This document shows positions 40,739 to 48,489 of a stretch of DNA of 64,000 nucleotides, piece by piece. The stretch is from Dyadobacter sp. 676. Lineage in GTDB: Bacteria > Bacteroidota > Bacteroidia > Cytophagales > Spirosomataceae. A model generated the notes under the pieces. It saw only the letters and a list, made by a program, of their open reading frames with translations. It did not search any database and was not told the DNA's origin. The position numbers and the translations under genes are program-made. The stretch spans positions 6,245,001 to 6,309,000 of the forward strand of contig NZ_CP159289.1 of assembly GCF_040448675.1 (NCBI RefSeq), written 5' to 3'. Position 1 is the stretch's first letter, and every line of letters begins with the position of its first letter.

Positions 40739-42988
40739 ATGCGACACCTTTTCAAAAGAACATTTATTCCAATACTACTTTCCGGCCTGGCAGCGATGCC
40801 TTCGCTGGCGCAGCAACAACCGCCACTCCTTGGCTTCGGCGCGGAGGCGGCAAAGAAAGAGCTGGACCTCGAAGCCGCATTCGATAAACAATTACAAGCC
40901 AATAACCTGCGCGACTGGATGAAGCGCATGACCGCCTTTCCGCACCAGTTGGGTTCGCCCTATGGCCTTAACAATGCGCTTTTCCTGCGCGACAAGCTCG
41001 CTTCGTGGGGTTTCGACGCGCGGCTCGATACGGTGCATGTGCTTTTTCCGACGCCCAAAGTGCGGGTACTGGAACTGACCGAGCCCACCAAGTTCAAGGC
41101 ATCATTAACCGAAAAACCATTGAAGGAGGACGCCACATCCGCGCAAACAAAAGATGTGCTGCCGCCTTACCACGCATTTTCGGCCAACGGGGATGTGACG
41201 GCCGAGCTGGTTTTTGTGAATTACGGCGTGCCGGACGATTATGAGGAACTGGCGAGGCTGGGTGTGGATGTGAAAGGGAAAATTGTGATCGCGAAATATG
41301 GCGGTTCGTGGCGGGGTATCAAGCCGAAAGTCGCGTACGAGCATGGCGCGATCGGTTGCATTATCTACTCCGATCCGAAGGAAGACGGCTATTTCCAGGG
41401 CGACGTATATCCGAAAGGGGCATTTAAAAACGAGTCGGGCGTGCAGCGCGGGTCGGTGGTGGACTTACCGCTGGCACCGGGCGATCCGCTGACGAATGGC
41501 TTCGTGGCCGATGCGACGCACAAGCGGCTGTCGGTGGAGGAGGCCCCGGCGATGATGAAGATCCCGGTGCTGCCGATTTCGTACGGCGATGCATTGCCGC
41601 TGCTCAAAGCATTGGGCGGGCAGGTAGCGCCTGCGACGTGGCGGGGCGCATTGCCGATCACTTACCACGTCGGCCCCGGCCCGGCGAAGGTACATTTAAA
41701 GCTCGAATTCAATTTCGATATCGTGCCTTGCTACAATGTGATCGCGACGCTGAAAGGCAGCGAGTTCCCCGACCAATGGGTGATCCGCGGCAATCACCAC
41801 GACGCCTGGGTGTTCGGTGCGGCCGACCCAGTGAGCGGCGCCGTGGCCGAACTGGAAGAAGCGCGGGCATTGGGCGAGCTCGTGAAAACCGGCTGGAAAC
41901 CGAAGCGCACCATCGTCTACTGCTGGTGGGACGGGGAGGAGCCCGGCCTGCTCGGCTCGACCGAATGGGTGGAGAAATACCAGTCCATTTTGCAGGAAAA
42001 GGCCGTTGTGTACCTCAATTCCGACGGAAACGGTCGGGGGTACCTGAGTGCGGGCGGGTCGCATACGCTCGAAAAGTTCATCAACCAGGTTGGCCGCGAC
42101 GTGACCGACCCCGAAAAAGGCACAAGCGTGATCGACCGCCTGCGCTCGCGCACGATCCTGAATGGCTCGCCGACCGCCAAACAAGAAGCGCGCACCCGCG
42201 CCGACCTGCGCATTGGCGCCCTCGGTTCCGGTTCTGACTATACGCCGTTCATCCAGCACCTGGGCATCGCTTCCCTCAACGTCGGCTACGGCGGCGAAGA
42301 TGCCGGCGGCGACTACCACTCCATTTTCGATTCCTACGACCATTACACCCGCTTCAAAGACGGCGACTTTGCCTACGGCGTAGCCCTCGCCAAAACCCTA
42401 GGCCGCTCCGTCCTCCGTTTCGCCAACGCCGAGGTACTGCCCTTCGATTTCACCAACTTCGCCAACACCGTGCAGCTCTACACCTCGGAAGTAAAAAAGG
42501 AACTCGAAGCTGCCCGTGCCAAAGCTGAGGAGCACAACAAATCCCTCACCGAAGGCCGCTACGAAGCCGCCTCCGACCCGAAAGATTCGTTTGTAAAGCC
42601 GGCTCCATTGTCGGTAGCTCCCTATCTGAATTTTGCACCGCTGGATAATGCATTGGTAGCATTGGAAAACAGCGCCAAAGCATTTGCTGTGGCTTCCTCG
42701 AAATTCTCGGCGCTTCCTGCGGACAAGTTGAAGGAGTTGAATGAGATATTATACAAAACCGAAAGGAAGCTGATCCATGCCGATGGTTTGCCTCGTCGGC
42801 CGTGGTACCGGCATCAGATCTATGCGCCGGGCTTTTATACTGGGTATGGGGTGAAGACGTTGCCGATGATCCGGGAGGCGATTGAGCAAAAGAATTGGAA
42901 GGAGGCTGAGGAAGGGATTTTGCGGGTTAGTGGGGTTTTGGAGGGGTTTGTGGGGGAGGTTGAGCGGGCGTGTGGGGTGGGGAGGTGA
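40739..42988 (+). CDS. M28B (glutamate carboxypeptidase II/transferrin-receptor-like) metallopeptidase
   Basis: 749 residues with a signal peptide (IPILLSGLAAMPSLAQ). A PA domain is inserted early (LVFVNYGVPDDYEELARLGVDVKGKIVIAKYGGSWRGIKPKVAYEHGAIGCI). The di-zinc catalytic core has GNHHDAWVFGAADPVSG (His, Asp), WWDGEEPGLLGSTEW (Glu pair), LNSDGNG (Asp) and AGGDYHSIFDSYDHY (His), followed by a dimerisation-like helical end. It should trim peptides or glutamyl conjugates in the periplasm. The last 75 bases are G-rich. Confidence 0.9.
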   Translation: MRHLFKRTFIPILLSGLAAMPSLAQQQPPLLGFGAEAAKKELDLEAAFDKQLQANNLRDWMKRMTAFPHQLGSPYGLNNALFLRDKLASWGFDARLDTVHVLFPTPKVRVLELTEPTKFKASLTEKPLKEDATSAQTKDVLPPYHAFSANGDVTAELVFVNYGVPDDYEELARLGVDVKGKIVIAKYGGSWRGIKPKVAYEHGAIGCIIYSDPKEDGYFQGDVYPKGAFKNESGVQRGSVVDLPLAPGDPLTNGFVADATHKRLSVEEAPAMMKIPVLPISYGDALPLLKALGGQVAPATWRGALPITYHVGPGPAKVHLKLEFNFDIVPCYNVIATLKGSEFPDQWVIRGNHHDAWVFGAADPVSGAVAELEEARALGELVKTGWKPKRTIVYCWWDGEEPGLLGSTEWVEKYQSILQEKAVVYLNSDGNGRGYLSAGGSHTLEKFINQVGRDVTDPEKGTSVIDRLRSRTILNGSPTAKQEARTRADLRIGALGSGSDYTPFIQHLGIASLNVGYGGEDAGGDYHSIFDSYDHYTRFKDGDFAYGVALAKTLGRSVLRFANAEVLPFDFTNFANTVQLYTSEVKKELEAARAKAEEHNKSLTEGRYEAASDPKDSFVKPAPLSVAPYLNFAPLDNALVALENSAKAFAVASSKFSALPADKLKELNEILYKTERKLIHADGLPRRPWYRHQIYAPGFYTGYGVKTLPMIREAIEQKNWKEAEEGILRVSGVLEGFVGEVERACGVGR

Positions 42989-43169
42989 ACATATGTCTTG
43001 TTGTCATATTCCGGCCGATAGTCTTTGGACTTGCAAATTGGGCATTATTTATACAATTTCTTTGATCATAAAATTGACGTCAATAATTCATTAAAAATTC
43101 TTATTATTCATTTTTTAATCAGATTTTTACTATTCTTGTGAATCGCCCTTCCAAAATCAAGCTTAGTAA
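42989..43169. other. AT-rich junction before the kinase island
   Basis: No gene is seen. The composition drops sharply to AT-rich after the peptidase stop, marking the likely boundary of the horizontally acquired block. No clear att repeat or tRNA is visible. Confidence 0.4.
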
Positions 43170-43520
43170 ATGACAACATATCAACTAGATTCAGACTTTG
43201 TTCAACAATATGGCATATCTGGCTATCATCAAAATTCCAAATCTGGTGGTCAGAAGGTTGTTTTTTTCCCTATAAGAAATGGTGAGAAAAGTGTTTTGAA
43301 GATTTTCAATGCCGGAGCCGATGCTAGATTTGATCGAGAGCTTGAAATTTATAATAAGTTCAGTCCATTAGGTGCCGTCCCCAAGATTTTGGAAGTAGCG
43401 ACCTTCAAGGGGGCGACATTCGTCTTTGAGGAGTTTATTGAAGGAAGTACTTTAGCGGATGTATTTGATTCGTTTAAAGGAGAGCCAAAACTCGTTAAGG
43501 ATCTGACTGCTGGTTTATGA
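43170..43520 (+). pseudogene. N-terminal fragment of a Ser/Thr protein kinase, interrupted by an IS element
   Basis: 116 codons up to the insertion, then a TGA supplied by the IS end (43518-43520). The kinase N-lobe has Lys44 in SVLKIF and the helix-C-type Glu57 in RELEIY, and ends with VPKILEVATFKGATFVFEEFIEGSTLADVF and the hinge. With the element and one TTTA copy removed it joins in frame to 44757 (KDLTAGL + FDALTPIWEE), giving an intact 263-residue kinase. The gene is AT-rich like its neighbours. Confidence 0.9.
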
Positions 43521-43566
43521 AATACTCCCGGTTTGCTGGACAGCCGACGGATGAAATTAAGTTTAA

Positions 43567-44412
43567 TTAGGATGCTTTTGCATTGATCTGGAAAAACAAT
43601 TCATCGGGAATGTACCCGGTTCCTGTGTGTTTGCGTCGACGGTTGTAAAATTCCACATATGCTTTTACTCCCCGATACAAATCCATCCCGCCATTTGGAG
43701 GATTTAAGTATATGTACTCTTGTTTGAGCGACCTCCAAAATCTTTCGATGAAAACATTGTCTAGGGCCCGTCCTTTTCCGTCCATAGAAATTTGTATCCC
43801 TTTCTCTAAGAGCGGCTTAATAAAACCCTGACTTGTGAATTGGCTACCCTGGTCGGTATTGAATATTTCGGGCTTTCCCTGTGTACGGATCGTATCCAAA
43901 AGCGTTTCCCGGCACCATTCCATACTCATTGTATTGGAGATACTCCATCCCACAATTCGACGGCTGTAAACGTCAATAATGGCGAACATGTACATAAATC
44001 CTCTGAACATTGGAATATAAGATATATCGGCTTGCCAGACCTGATTGGGGCGCTCAATCTTCAACCCCTTCAGCAAATATGGATATTTGTAATCTGTTGG
44101 TTTGGATTTGCTTAGATTGCGCTTGGGATAAATTGTGCGCAAATTCATAAGTCTATAAAGTCTTCTCACCCGCTTCACACCAACAGGATATCCCAGTCCG
44201 ATCAGGTAATCACGCATGCGTTCTACGCCATAAAACGGGCACTCTAGAAACTGGCGATCAATGGCCTTCATCAATCGCTGGTTTAACAGAGACTGACCTC
44301 TCGGCTTAAAGTAATAGCTACTACGCTGTAAACCAATCAATTTGCACTGTGCCGAGACGCTTAGCTCAGGGTACTCAGGGGAAACAAGTCCGCGTTTCTC
44401 CATAACACTCAT
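43567..44412 (-). CDS. IS3 transposase OrfB (DDE integrase domain)
   Basis: 281 residues. HTH_21-like start (QCKLIGLQRSSYYFKPRG), then the integrase core: WQADISYIPMF (Asp), FNTDQGSQFTS (Asp) and DNVFIERFWRSLKQEYI (Glu) with the conserved FYNRRRKHTGTGYIPDE end. It is normally made as an OrfAB fusion by a -1 slip at AAAAAAG (44424-44430, minus strand) near the end of orfA: after AAA AAG, the -1 frame reads GGT CTT GGG GAA ATG and enters OrfB. Confidence 0.93.
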   Translation of the reverse strand: MSVMEKRGLVSPEYPELSVSAQCKLIGLQRSSYYFKPRGQSLLNQRLMKAIDRQFLECPFYGVERMRDYLIGLGYPVGVKRVRRLYRLMNLRTIYPKRNLSKSKPTDYKYPYLLKGLKIERPNQVWQADISYIPMFRGFMYMFAIIDVYSRRIVGWSISNTMSMEWCRETLLDTIRTQGKPEIFNTDQGSQFTSQGFIKPLLEKGIQISMDGKGRALDNVFIERFWRSLKQEYIYLNPPNGGMDLYRGVKAYVEFYNRRRKHTGTGYIPDELFFQINAKAS

Positions 44413-44696
44413 TTCCCCAAGACCTTTTTTAAAAAATCGACTTGGACTTGAAGTTCACCGATTTTAGAATACAATTCCTTCTCTTTTGTGTTTTCGGATT
44501 CATTACCAGTGGTGGGTGCCTCTTTACTGAAAACTAATTCAGCCTTTTCCAGAAACTCTCGCTTCCAGGCAGCTATCTGTGTTGGATGAATCTCGTACTT
44601 GGAGGCCAATTCCTGCACGGTCTGAACCTCTTTAATCGCTTCAATAGCCACTTTGGCTTTGAAGCTCGCACTGAATTTTCTACGTTCCTTTTTCAT
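44409..44696 (-). CDS. IS3 transposase OrfA (helix-turn-helix)
   Basis: 95 residues. RRKFSASFKAKVAIEAIKEVQTVQELASKYEIHPTQIAAWK is the HTH_Tnp_1 domain that binds the terminal repeats, followed by a leucine-zipper-like tail (IGELQVQVDFLKKVLG). Its last four bases overlap orfB, and the slippery AAAAAAG lies at the end. Confidence 0.92.
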   Translation of the reverse strand: MKKERRKFSASFKAKVAIEAIKEVQTVQELASKYEIHPTQIAAWKREFLEKAELVFSKEAPTTGNESENTKEKELYSKIGELQVQVDFLKKVLGK

Positions 44697-44756
44697 AGTC
44701 AGCTACTAAGTTAGAAATTTAAGCAGCTGTCCAGATTTCTGGGAGTATTATATTTA

Positions 44757-45200
44757 TTTGATGCACTTACACCAATATGGGAGGAAAAATTTGTTCATCG
44801 AGATATCAAGCCCGAAAATATTATAATACGTCCGGATGGACGGCCAGCTGTGATTGATTTTGGGATAGCGAGGGAAATTGGTGGCACTACTTTAACTAGC
44901 ACTGGTTTACAGCCAATGAGTTGGCGCTTTGCTAGCCCAGAACAATTTAGAGCAGAAAGGGATTTGATTTCGTATAAAACAGACTTTTTTAGTATTGGAA
45001 TTTTAGCTTATTACTTGTTTCATGGCGCTCATCCATTTGGGGGTACACGATCTGAAATAGAGAGACGATTCAAAAGCGGCAATGACAAGCTAAGTTGTGA
45101 TCCTAAGTTTACTCTTAGCAATTTTTGTGGTGACGCGCTACGATTTAATGTATCAGATCGGCCGAGATTTATTCAAGACTTGTACGCTAAAATTGCTTGA
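44757..45200 (+). pseudogene. C-terminal fragment of the interrupted Ser/Thr protein kinase
   Basis: 148 codons from the insertion junction to TGA 45198-45200. It contains the catalytic loop VHRDIKPENI (Asp132 of the joined protein), the metal-binding DFG (Asp150), the activation segment TSTGLQPMSWRFASPEQF and the FFSIGILAYYLFHGAHPFGG helix. These are all the motifs expected of a Hanks-type kinase. An internal start at 44850 would lack the catalytic loop, so it is not treated as a gene. The next gene begins 1 bp after the stop, so they were one operon. Confidence 0.9.
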
Positions 45201-45201
45201 T

Positions 45202-46383
45202 ATGCAAACGTTACATCTATTGGGCCATTGCTCAAACTGGAATGTTGATGCTTACTTTGAGAACAGCATAGGTGATGGCTTTATATTTACTGCTTACAGC
45301 CACAAAGAAGACTTTTTTAGAAAGAAGGTCATCTATGGACAATCCGCACCTAAAATCCTTTCCCATTCGCTTTTAGACCTTCAATACTATGGTAAGCGAG
45401 AATCATCGAAAATTGGAAGAGGAAATTTATCCAGCTATTCATTTCACCCCGCTTCTATCGACGATGGAAGCGAGGATCAAACGAATTTGTACTTAGTTCA
45501 GAGAATTATAGATGGAATACGCTTTCAACGGAATCTAGGACTGAAAAGAATTATTATCCCGATACATTATGAAGATAGTACAATATCTGGTTTTTTAGGA
45601 TACATAAAAGAAATTAATCGATGGCTCAAAGAAAATAAGGAAAATGGAATAGAGTATTACATGAGCTTACCAATAAGCTATGTCATGTTGATGAACAATG
45701 ATAATGTGGAGAGATTGCTTGCGGGGTTAGTCCATTTTGATATGACCTTTGAAGGATACTATGTTGCTTTTGAGACAAGGTTAGAGGGTTTATCTAAACT
45801 TAATACGAATTATCGATATCTTTCAAACGCAATTAGGATATTATCTGTTCTTAAAAAACAAAAGTTTAAAACAATATTATCATATGCAAACTGGGACGCG
45901 ATACTATTCCTAGCGACCACTGATATCGATTACATCACCATTGCAACCTACGAGAATCTTCGAAATTTTAACATTAGAAGATTTTTGAAAAGTGACTCGG
46001 GCGGGCCTTCGAAAGGTTGGTATTTTTCAGAGGTAATTCTGGCGATGATCAAGGCCGATAATTTGAATTATATAAGAGACCGCGTGGGGATAGAGGCAAT
46101 TTCTAACAGGAAAAATATATTTTCCGATATTATTTTGGACGAGAAGTATCTTTGGGTTAACCAAAAGCCGGATATTCATAAGAACTATTTGCTCGCGATA
46201 GATAGGCTCCTCAAATCAATTGCATCATTCGAAGATTTGATGGAGCGGAAAAAATTTGTTGAATCGTTAATTATAAAAGCTCAGGAGCATTATCAATCTT
46301 TACGAAGAAATAAAATAGTTATTGGGGAAATTGGAGCGGAAGGGCATTACCACGACTGGCTTAGAGTTATTGATGGGTTTTAG
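45202..46383 (+). CDS. 394-residue protein of unknown family, paired with the kinase
   Basis: The ATG at 45202 lies 1 bp after the kinase stop (TGATATG), which implies translational coupling. I do not recognise the family. It has no signal or membrane helix. Strand-helix alternation is visible (KRIIIPIHYED, IEYYMSLPISYVMLM, FEGYYVAFETR, FKTILSYANW, IDYITIATYENLRNF), which would suit a TIM-barrel or other alpha/beta fold. Possible conserved polar spots are SHSLLDLQYYGKRESS, IPIHYED and GAEGHYHDW. The C-terminal 100 residues are helical. It converges on the nuclease-like gene and overlaps its 3' end by 17 bp. It may be the effector or modifier of the module. Confidence 0.6.
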   Translation: MQTLHLLGHCSNWNVDAYFENSIGDGFIFTAYSHKEDFFRKKVIYGQSAPKILSHSLLDLQYYGKRESSKIGRGNLSSYSFHPASIDDGSEDQTNLYLVQRIIDGIRFQRNLGLKRIIIPIHYEDSTISGFLGYIKEINRWLKENKENGIEYYMSLPISYVMLMNNDNVERLLAGLVHFDMTFEGYYVAFETRLEGLSKLNTNYRYLSNAIRILSVLKKQKFKTILSYANWDAILFLATTDIDYITIATYENLRNFNIRRFLKSDSGGPSKGWYFSEVILAMIKADNLNYIRDRVGIEAISNRKNIFSDIILDEKYLWVNQKPDIHKNYLLAIDRLLKSIASFEDLMERKKFVESLIIKAQEHYQSLRRNKIVIGEIGAEGHYHDWLRVIDGF

Positions 46384-47020
46384 ATCCTTTTACGTACTCA
46401 TTAAATTGGATAGTCATTTTTTTGCTTATTGGTTGTTCCTTAGAGGGTTTATAATGTATCGATATTTCCCCCAAAAGATTTATCTCAGCCAAGCCAATAT
46501 TTAATTTTTCAAACTCATGTAGATTACTCAGTGCAGGCTTGATATTAGATGAGTCCATGACTACATAGGACTGAAAGGAAAACCACTTATATCTGAAAGC
46601 TTGATAAAGTGCCCTTTTCCAGTTTTTTAATTTTGCTTCAACTGCAATATTATCCAAAACTACTGCATTGTAGACTACGCCAAGACTATAACTGCCTTCA
46701 ACGTTTTTGATATACGAAAGATTTTCTAATTTCCTTAGCACATTTTTTAACTTAGCAGACGCTATTCGAGATCCCTGAAGAAGGTCATCAAAAGTTTGGT
46801 CGGGATACTTAGCTATGATTTCGTATATATGAATGTCAGTGTCATTCATGATAGTTTCCGCGATGTCATAGTGCTTAACCTTTGCCACTACGAGATCAGC
46901 TATTCCATAACCCATAGCCACTTCTTCCACAAGAATAGTTTGTGATCGGGAATTCCAATCACAAAGTTTGCTTACAGATGATTTCAGGGTATTTACTAGT
47001 TCCTTCTCGGTTTTAAACAT
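46367..47020 (-). CDS. predicted PD-(D/E)xK nuclease with internal winged helix
   Basis: 217 residues. Asp42 in GYGIADLVV and the pair Glu128/Lys130 in IAVEAKLKNW, followed by KRALYQAFRYKWFSFQSYVVM, fit the restriction-nuclease-like fold (Asp...Glu-x-Lys and the downstream helix with Gln). Between the two halves (about residues 65-115) lies a winged helix-turn-helix-like segment (IHIYEIIAKYPDQTFDDLL, SAKLKNVLRKLENLSYI). The start overlaps the PP2C stop by 8 bp, so the two form an operon. The assignment rests on motif reading, not on a match, so it is inference. It would cut DNA or RNA under phosphorylation control. Confidence 0.55.
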   Translation of the reverse strand: MFKTEKELVNTLKSSVSKLCDWNSRSQTILVEEVAMGYGIADLVVAKVKHYDIAETIMNDTDIHIYEIIAKYPDQTFDDLLQGSRIASAKLKNVLRKLENLSYIKNVEGSYSLGVVYNAVVLDNIAVEAKLKNWKRALYQAFRYKWFSFQSYVVMDSSNIKPALSNLHEFEKLNIGLAEINLLGEISIHYKPSKEQPISKKMTIQFNEYVKGSKTHQ

Positions 47021-47693
47021 CTTGTGAAATCATTATAAATGTAGAGTCATCAACATTTTTGTTTGAAATCAATGAGACAAGTCCGCTATATATGCTTTGG
47101 AGATTTTTTTTATTGAGAGTTTCAAAAAACTTTTTTTTGTCAGTTTCAAGTAAATTGTAAAACCCGTCAGTACAAAGAAGAATGGAATCAACACCCAAAT
47201 CGATGTTGCCTTGGGTAAAGTCTTTCAAAGAAAGATCGTTCATGCCTAAGCATTTGGTAAGTACATTTTTGGCAAGAAGACTTTTGTCGTCGGTAGTAAT
47301 TTGTTCGAGATATTGATCGGAAACAAGATATATTCTTGAATCTCCCAGCGACGAAAAGAACAAATCGTTGTGGTCTTTGTGCAAAAGTGCAGTACAGTAT
47401 GTGGTGTAAATCTCTGGAATGTTCTGCTCAATTAAGTAATTGTTGCACTCAAACATTAAAGCATTCAATGATACCTTAGTTTCTCTAATAAACTTACTGA
47501 AATGTTGCGAAATGAAGGTTTTGGCTATTTCGGTTCCGACTTTGCTATTTTGGGCACTTCCAACGCCATCGAAAACAGCGAACAGTGCAAATGCTTCGGT
47601 TTCAAGTATCAAGTAGTTGTCTTGATTCTCCGTCTTGTTAATGCCTGGGCTTGAATATTTTATGTAACGTTTGAAATTATTTGTCACTGTCAT
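47013..47693 (-). CDS. PP2C-type protein phosphatase
   Basis: The ATG at 47691-47693 gives 226 residues (MTVTNNFKRYIKYSSPGIN); the longer reading from 47876 lacks similarity. The metal and active-site residues are Asp25 in ENQDN, Asp42 in VFDGVG, Asp118 in GDSR, Asp176 in CTDGFYN and the Asp215/216 pair in VDDSTF. A small soluble PP2C removes phosphate from Ser/Thr. It is the natural antagonist of the kinase on the opposite strand and shares its AT-rich composition. The last 8 bp overlap the nuclease-like gene. Confidence 0.92.
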   Translation of the reverse strand: MTVTNNFKRYIKYSSPGINKTENQDNYLILETEAFALFAVFDGVGSAQNSKVGTEIAKTFISQHFSKFIRETKVSLNALMFECNNYLIEQNIPEIYTTYCTALLHKDHNDLFFSSLGDSRIYLVSDQYLEQITTDDKSLLAKNVLTKCLGMNDLSLKDFTQGNIDLGVDSILLCTDGFYNLLETDKKKFFETLNKKNLQSIYSGLVSLISNKNVDDSTFIMISQDV

Positions 47694-48113
47694 AGTACTT
47701 TTTTGCACTTGTGAAAATCGGTGCAATGTTGCAATATAGCGTATTGTGTTATTTTTGGGTAAAAATTTGATCAGTTTCTTCCACCTTTCGCGTTGTTTAA
47801 GGTGTGGCTGGGCTATTCGGTGATTGTCGAGCCGTGTGAGGTGTTTTCCGTTAGGGGGCTTTATGGGCGAAAACACTTAAATTGATTATAAATCATTGTT
47901 GAAAAAAAGAGAACGTCGGTCCATTGATGTCAATCGCCTGTATTGAGCGCAATTACAAACTCGCCAGTATCTTTCCTTGGAATGCCGATTCGGCAGCGTG
48001 TGCTAAGTATAACAAACCCTTGTGTTAGGTTCGGGAGTGGAGTAGTTGAGAATTATCAAGCTGGTGGTTACTCGTCACTTAAGAAGGTCAAAATGGGCAC
48101 TTGAAACGACATC
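47694..48113. promoter_or_regulatory. gene-free gap upstream of the PP2C operon
   Basis: About 420 bp without a supported gene. An 8-bp exact inverted repeat, GTGTTTTC (47841-47848) and GAAAACAC (47869-47876), lies about 150 bp before the PP2C start and encloses a run GGGGGC/TTTATGGGC. It could be an operator or terminator. The remainder is unremarkable. Confidence 0.35.
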
Positions 48114-48338
48114 CTACGCTAAGGTACTGCCTCCGCTAGTACTCACCAGCAGCTCCCGAATATCCACCTTCAACCAAACCGAAATCTCATAAAGCGTCTC
48201 CAAAGTAGGCTGTATCTCATTCCGGCACCAGCGCGAGACGGTAGTTTCGGTCTTGCCCAAATGCTGGGCCAGCTCTTTGCCGGACTTGTCCTTTTCGACC
48301 AGCACTAACTTGATTCGGTTTAAGCGCAATTTTGACAC
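48114..48338 (-). CDS. small XRE-family regulator beside SymE
   Basis: 74 residues: NRIKLVLVEKDKSGKELAQHLGKTETTVSRWCRNEIQPTLETLYEISV, a complete helix-turn-helix with WLKVDIRELL. It is divergent from the SymE-like gene across 151 bp of AT-rich DNA. Such HTH genes often partner SymE toxins in Bacteroidota, acting as regulator or antitoxin. Confidence 0.85.
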   Translation of the reverse strand: MSKLRLNRIKLVLVEKDKSGKELAQHLGKTETTVSRWCRNEIQPTLETLYEISVWLKVDIRELLVSTSGGSTLA

Positions 48339-48489
48339 GAGATGCTCATTTATAGCGATTTCGTGTAAATTAAATACAAAATTTCCACATCAATAAAAGT
48401 TCTCTTAAAGTTGATAAATAGTAATTTTGTGTTGATTTACTTTGTAAATATTACTATATATTATATTATTGTGTGTAAAATTTGAGACT

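Follow-up and report, generated by a model that had tools for sequence, protein, structure and literature searches.

Between positions 43170 and 47693 of the window analysed here (the whole 64,000-nt stretch of Dyadobacter sp. 676, assembly GCF_040448675.1, contig NZ_CP159289.1, forward-strand positions 6,245,001-6,309,000; all positions below refer to this window) lies a compact block of four genes arranged as two convergent pairs. A Hanks-type kinase gene and a gene for a 393-amino-acid (393-aa) protein occupy the forward strand and face the genes for a predicted 217-aa nuclease and a PP2C phosphatase on the reverse strand. On re-reading the frames, we found gene order and orientation as given in a preliminary description of this DNA, together with the tight packing it had reported: one base separates the kinase stop codon (45198-45200) from the ATG of the 393-aa gene (45202), the 393-aa and 217-aa genes overlap tail to tail by 17 bp (46367-46383), and the nuclease and PP2C genes overlap by 8 bp (47013-47020). 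The block also proved as AT-rich as described, with a guanine-cytosine (GC) content of 36.6% (insertion sequence excluded) against a mean of 52.6% (SD 2.2, lowest value 46.3%) in 223 overlapping segments of the same size across the remainder of the window. When intact, the gene set measures ~3.3 kb. Two details had to be revised: the kinase gene, previously taken as a single open frame, is divided by an IS3-type insertion sequence (IS; 43518-44752), and the protein given as 394 aa counts 393 aa from its ATG.

The first kinase piece (43170..43517, forward strand) carries the N-lobe with the glycine-rich loop and the VLK lysine, and taken alone gives a weak match to APH; the second (44753..45200, forward strand) carries the HRDIKPEN and DFG motifs and matches Pkinase (E = 1.3e-18). 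The two pieces were aligned separately with intact relatives; the breakpoint leaves the N-lobe on one side and the HRD/DFG half on the other. Since the glycine-rich loop and the HRD/DFG motifs are on separate pieces, the kinase of the window genome is almost certainly inactive and, with its kinase interrupted, the module there is probably off; the frames for the 393-aa protein, the nuclease and PP2C are all still open. The element itself, on the reverse strand, encodes the transposase proteins orfB (43567..44412, reverse strand; Pfam rve, E = 1.8e-24) and orfA (44409..44696, reverse strand; Pfam HTH_Tnp_1, E = 7e-10). The 7.28-Mb single-contig genome holds nine full-length copies at ~100% identity (kinase copy counted), the ends agree across the eight copies read, and a 4-bp direct repeat flanks the kinase copy, so the insertion is probably recent. 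Two pairs of near-identical IS copies, ~11-13 kb apart (G000 C1, 3533215/3544259 and 5534649/5547438), are possible composite elements.

The 217-aa protein (46367..47020, reverse strand) is a predicted PD-(D/E)xK nuclease. Its AlphaFold2 model (predicted local distance difference test, pLDDT, 93.7) contains the alpha-beta-beta-beta-alpha-beta core of the superfamily, in keeping with the nuclease fold previously claimed for it, with a winged helix inserted at residues ~56-115. Model and alignments point to D42, E128 and K130 as the catalytic residues: E128 and K130 are invariant in 27/27 rows of the nuclease family, and the Asp, Glu and Lys are kept at all six loci described below, winged helix present or absent. 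The winged helix of the 217-aa protein matches Pfam only weakly (TrmB, E = 6e-4, below the Pfam cut-off), the family profile matched winged helices when compared with the PDB, and a Pfam scan of 27 members returned mostly weak winged-helix matches, with HSDR_N_2 in three of them (best E = 0.04). No PADLOC model matched the 217-aa protein. Relatives on other contigs (P0170-P0175) are shorter, at 149-174 aa, and have no winged helix.

The kinase and PP2C identities proposed earlier are borne out by Pfam matches to both. The PP2C gene (47013..47693, reverse strand; PP2C_2, E = 3e-17) encodes 226 aa from its ATG at 47693, with an alternative GTG start at 47876; three relatives of 219-235 aa are near the shorter form, and the catalytic motifs are retained in the four sequences aligned. 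PADLOC matched PP2C to PDC-M21C (E = 1.8e-7) and the second kinase piece to mad6 (MADS; E = 2.4e-22) and PD-T4-6, a likeness limited to the generic kinase and PP2C domains.

The 393-aa protein (45202..46383, forward strand) has neither a Pfam match at E ≤ 1 nor a PADLOC match. Its AlphaFold2 model (pLDDT 85.6) was recognised by structure comparison (Foldseek) as a barrel of the tRNA-guanine transglycosylase (TGT) type; phosphoenolpyruvate carboxylase, triose-phosphate isomerase and endonuclease IV barrels also passed the Foldseek threshold of E = 0.001, at lower template-modelling scores, and Cap10 (9ntn_A) matched at E = 2.4e-3 (TMq 0.41). Hallmarks of the TGT family are a zinc motif, CxCx2C...H, and two catalytic aspartates (Asp102 and Asp280 of the Z. 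mobilis enzyme). The zinc motif is not present in the alignments of the 393-aa family (A1) or of a remote 397-aa family introduced below (A3); an Asp after strand 3 is invariant in both (32/32 and 29/29 rows, respectively), and the position of the TGT nucleophile appears to be held by Thr/Ser according to topological mapping. Both family profiles, compared by hhalign in local and global modes with 30 TGTs of the phylum, reached probabilities of only 0.16% and 0.13%, and the best local alignment had a register unlike that of the topological mapping. A sequence-profile search of the PDB gave one chance-level row for A1 and five for A3, and PF01702 was absent among the Pfam matches of 29 members of the remote family, which shared no Pfam family at all. 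The profile comparisons gave no sequence link to TGTs, and the likeness is one of predicted structure only.

Homologue searches at E ≤ 1e-3 found 287 relatives of the 393-aa protein and 51 of the 217-aa protein. Of these 51 nuclease-family entries, 14 (the window genome among them) lie on contigs equal in size to that of one of 120 listed entries of the 393-aa family; in controls with sizes shifted by 1-10 bases in both directions, 17 shifts gave no such pair and three gave one. All 14 paired contigs fall among the closest 60 entries, and pairing with the list for the remote family gave 0/51. Complete four-gene modules were found in G482 (L005/L008, same taxonomic family) and G139 (L003/L006, another family of the phylum), and the last three genes in Taibaiella (L001), where the place of the kinase is beyond the contig end, with 127 unread bases. 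Order and orientation in these three are as in the window, and this conservation rules out a chance juxtaposition of the four genes. Whole-genome searches, in overlapping samples, matched 3/395 genomes of the phylum (including the window genome and one remote relative), 2/291 of the order (including the window genome), 3/395 of the class (the window genome and two chance-level matches) and 1/244 of the class of G139 (G139 itself); none of the 14 same-genus genomes listed in the order-level search matched. G867 (E = 6e-4), G877 (9e-4) and G1175 (6e-4) were discarded as chance-level matches. No relative was found among viral contigs with two degenerate patterns, an insensitive search, nor among plasmids with tblastn, and carriage by either may still occur.

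One weak match, in G255, is a protein of 397 aa that itself has 598 homologues, recorded from Ignavibacteriae, Nitrospirota, Deltaproteobacteria, Sedimentisphaerales, Fibrobacterota and others; its family is a full-length relative of the 393-aa family (hhalign probability 99.3%, 376 columns). A search for this remote form matched 3/294 genomes, namely G255, G1098 and one at chance level. In G255 and G1098 the kinase gene is directly upstream of the 397-aa gene and a PD-(D/E)xK gene converges on it, no PP2C gene was seen at either locus, and the nuclease is without a winged helix. Tail-to-tail overlap is thus kept in 6/6 loci (17, 21, 11, 24, 6 and 23 bp in the window, G482, G139, Taibaiella, G255 and G1098, respectively). 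In each of the five loci whose sequence extends as far as its place, a single kinase is present (in the window as two pieces), spaced from the TGT-fold gene by a 1-bp gap or a 4-bp overlap. The remote form does without both the winged helix and PP2C, so the core, as judged from gene content, comprises only the kinase, the 393/397-aa protein and the nuclease. PP2C and the winged-helix insert are both present in 4/4 loci and both absent in 2/2, a single evolutionary contrast which suggests that they share one control layer.

The block occupies a variable slot (42988..48474) that runs from the end of an M28 peptidase gene (42988) to a conserved right flank beginning at about 48134-48487. Both edges are kept around different cargo in five of the seven same-genus stretches fetched; these are the five closest sister genomes (M28 identity 93-96%), with 3.1-5.5 kb of differing DNA at 36.5-41.7% GC. 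The other two (L054 and L055; M28 identity 80-81%) have no matching right edge and are outside the count. Ten of the slot proteins were scanned with Pfam and PADLOC. L049 carries an OLD/AriA-type ATPase and a DarTG pair (DarG, PADLOC E = 1e-115; DarT, Pfam E = 3e-51); L050 (2270-5450), an ATPase gene matching PDC-M26A (E = 5e-33) beside an unmatched 549-aa gene, a pair that looks McrBC-like by eye without a Pfam match; L051, a close copy of the L049 DarTG pair (by eye) and an unmatched 586-aa gene; L052, HipA_2 and DUF3037 genes (PDC-M66A and PDC-M66B; E = 2e-99 and 1e-112) with a PD-T7-1/PD-T7-5-like gene; and L053, a DndB/DpdB-type gene accompanied by what look like an adenine methylase, a PIN protein and an ImmA-type protein (by eye). 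DS-6, an anti-phage system confirmed by experiment, consists of a HipA-like kinase and a DUF3037 protein (PMC13092281). The slot behind the M28 gene is, in these five genomes, a genus-level chromosomal hotspot with defence-type cargo. The 586-aa protein of L051 (11159-12919, reverse strand), which adjoins DarTG and has no Pfam or PADLOC match, includes what looks by eye like a PD-(D/E)xK stretch. Type III Mod and Res genes (named by eye) flank the three-gene form in G1098, and the positional evidence for defence is good overall. The Mod gene there (L089, 7780-11232) seems, by eye, to hold an in-frame intein with a DUF559/Vsr-like endonuclease.

These findings point to a mobile, compact candidate anti-phage module with a kinase/TGT-fold arm, a nuclease effector and a PP2C brake, a reading to which we give a chance slightly short of even. 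Co-produced from one strand, the kinase and TGT-fold protein would form the sensing and activating arm, and the opposite strand would supply the winged-helix nuclease as effector together with PP2C as brake. In the absence of infection, PP2C would strip phosphate from its target (the TGT-fold protein, the winged helix of the nuclease, or both), and the nuclease would stay idle. The TGT-fold pocket might be the sensor of infection, with a nucleobase or modified nucleic acid as the natural candidate ligand, or the trigger might be loss of PP2C activity; phosphorylation would then unleash the nuclease on DNA. The tail-to-tail overlap might also allow antisense control of one arm by the other. The kinase occurs in all five loci that reach its place, PP2C is missing in 2/6, and the strain is alive with a broken kinase and open nuclease and PP2C frames, which fits a kinase acting as activator and PP2C as brake. 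The model is based on the conserved gene set, the nuclease and TGT-like folds, the catalytic motifs of the kinase (in relatives), PP2C and nuclease, and the defence-type location. The phosphorylation-gated, possibly anti-phage nuclease system proposed in the preliminary description is partly supported, and we infer the phosphorylation partners, the signal sensed, DNA cleavage and phage protection.

Several observations weigh against this defence reading. The G482, G139 and G255 copies have housekeeping genes as neighbours, no other defence gene was seen near them, and the module is rare and patchy, found in 1-3 of 244-395 genomes per search. PP2C and the winged helix are missing from the remote form, and the TGT-like assignment has to contend with the other barrels that passed the Foldseek threshold and with the negative profile comparisons. 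The IS, being upstream of the 393-aa gene, may silence that gene too, in which case survival without the kinase says little on the role of the kinase. No gene for deazapurine biosynthesis was recognised in the module, and phage protection is at this stage a prediction from sequence. A more specific version of the model is doubtful, namely phosphorylation-gated nucleobase sensing, in which the TGT-fold protein, its pocket kept and its chemistry changed, would read a base, for instance a 7-deazaguanine or some other modified one carried by phage DNA or tRNA, and signal to the Hanks kinase, which would license the nuclease. If true, it would be, to our knowledge, the first TGT-fold protein in immunity to be controlled by reversible Ser/Thr phosphorylation.

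Several rival explanations were considered. The module could be of toxin-antitoxin type, with the kinase as toxin, PP2C as antitoxin, and the nuclease and TGT-fold protein as auxiliaries, a phage inhibitor of PP2C causing abortive infection via phosphorylation of host proteins. Such logic is known from the kinase/PP2C defence module KKP (PMC11341870), and the catalytic motifs of PP2C and kinase are retained. However, in both remote loci, where PP2C is missing, a toxic kinase would be unrestrained, and all six loci retain the TGT-fold and nuclease genes; we hold this explanation unlikely.

We regard as distinctly unlikely a restriction-type system in which the TGT-fold protein would alter or tag a host DNA base, the winged-helix nuclease would cut according to the state of that mark, and kinase and PP2C would tune the process. 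DpdA modifies a base in DNA. The TGT-like fold with its invariant Asp, the PaqCI-like core of the nuclease and the presence of one relative (G1098) inside a type III restriction-modification operon would all suit this reading, as would the existence of endonuclease fusions with N6-methyladenine-reading winged helices (PMC11037411). Against it stand the Thr/Ser mapped to the nucleophile position, the absent zinc motif, the remote-form nuclease without a winged helix, and the fact that no precursor-supplying gene was seen nearby. A regulatory or stress module without a defence role, in which the winged-helix protein would bind DNA as a regulator controlled by phosphorylation and its nuclease fold would be a vestige, is quite improbable: some databases call the relatives MarR-type regulators and three copies lie amid housekeeping genes, yet the Asp and Glu-x-Lys are kept in 6/6 loci even without the winged helix, and the patchy occurrence and the defence-type slot in sister genomes also argue against it.

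Returning to the anti-phage reading, the module is real, conserved and mobile, with an IS-broken copy in the window and no counterpart in the libraries searched. The gene set looks like an undescribed anti-virus system; we found no description of it in the literature searched, whose coverage excludes most subscription papers and bioRxiv, so that it may be published there. The candidate is coherent, and neither its 393-aa protein, which is TGT-like in fold, nor its 217-aa protein is recognised by the defence and domain libraries searched. The 393-aa and 397-aa families extend well past the window genome, and intact copies are present in other genomes.

TGT-like folds are tied to immunity via base modification (DpdA). 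The 393-aa protein differs from TGT (PF01702) and DpdA in its lack of Pfam and PADLOC matches, its negative profiles, the absence of CxCx2C and, by topological inference, a nucleophile position that is not Asp. Type IV CBASS (cyclic oligonucleotide-based anti-phage signalling system) recruits a TGT-family fold to a defence operon with Cap10/Cap9 (PMC11996544), a likeness to Cap10 by fold only; no CD-NTase, Cap9/QueC-like or Cap10 gene was recognised among the frames in or beside the module, read by eye without a model search. The nuclease core resembles the N-terminal PD-(D/E)xK domain of the type IIS endonuclease PaqCI (PMC10201449) but has its winged helix inserted within the nuclease domain and no separate target-recognition domain. 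Winged-helix N6-methyladenine-dependent type IV endonucleases likewise join a nuclease to a winged helix as possible DNA reader, with no kinase, PP2C or TGT-fold partner as far as described (PMC11037411). In VapK-VapS-VapC, where a kinase releases a nuclease, and in CapK-CapS, the kinase acts on a target that in turn governs a nuclease or an immune operon (PMC13373217); unlike the module, these have a GHKL-type kinase, a STAS-domain target, no PP2C and another nuclease fold. KKP (PfkA-PfkB-PfpC), a prophage kinase-kinase-PP2C defence whose phosphatase brake is tripped by a phage protein, shares with the module a Ser/Thr kinase and PP2C in a small mobile unit (PMC11341870). It differs in its pair of kinases, PfkA carrying a fused cold-shock domain, and has no nuclease or TGT-fold gene among its named parts, whereas the module has one kinase, dispenses with PP2C in 2/6 loci, has two further genes in its core and joins a TGT-like fold to a kinase/PP2C switch and a predicted nuclease.

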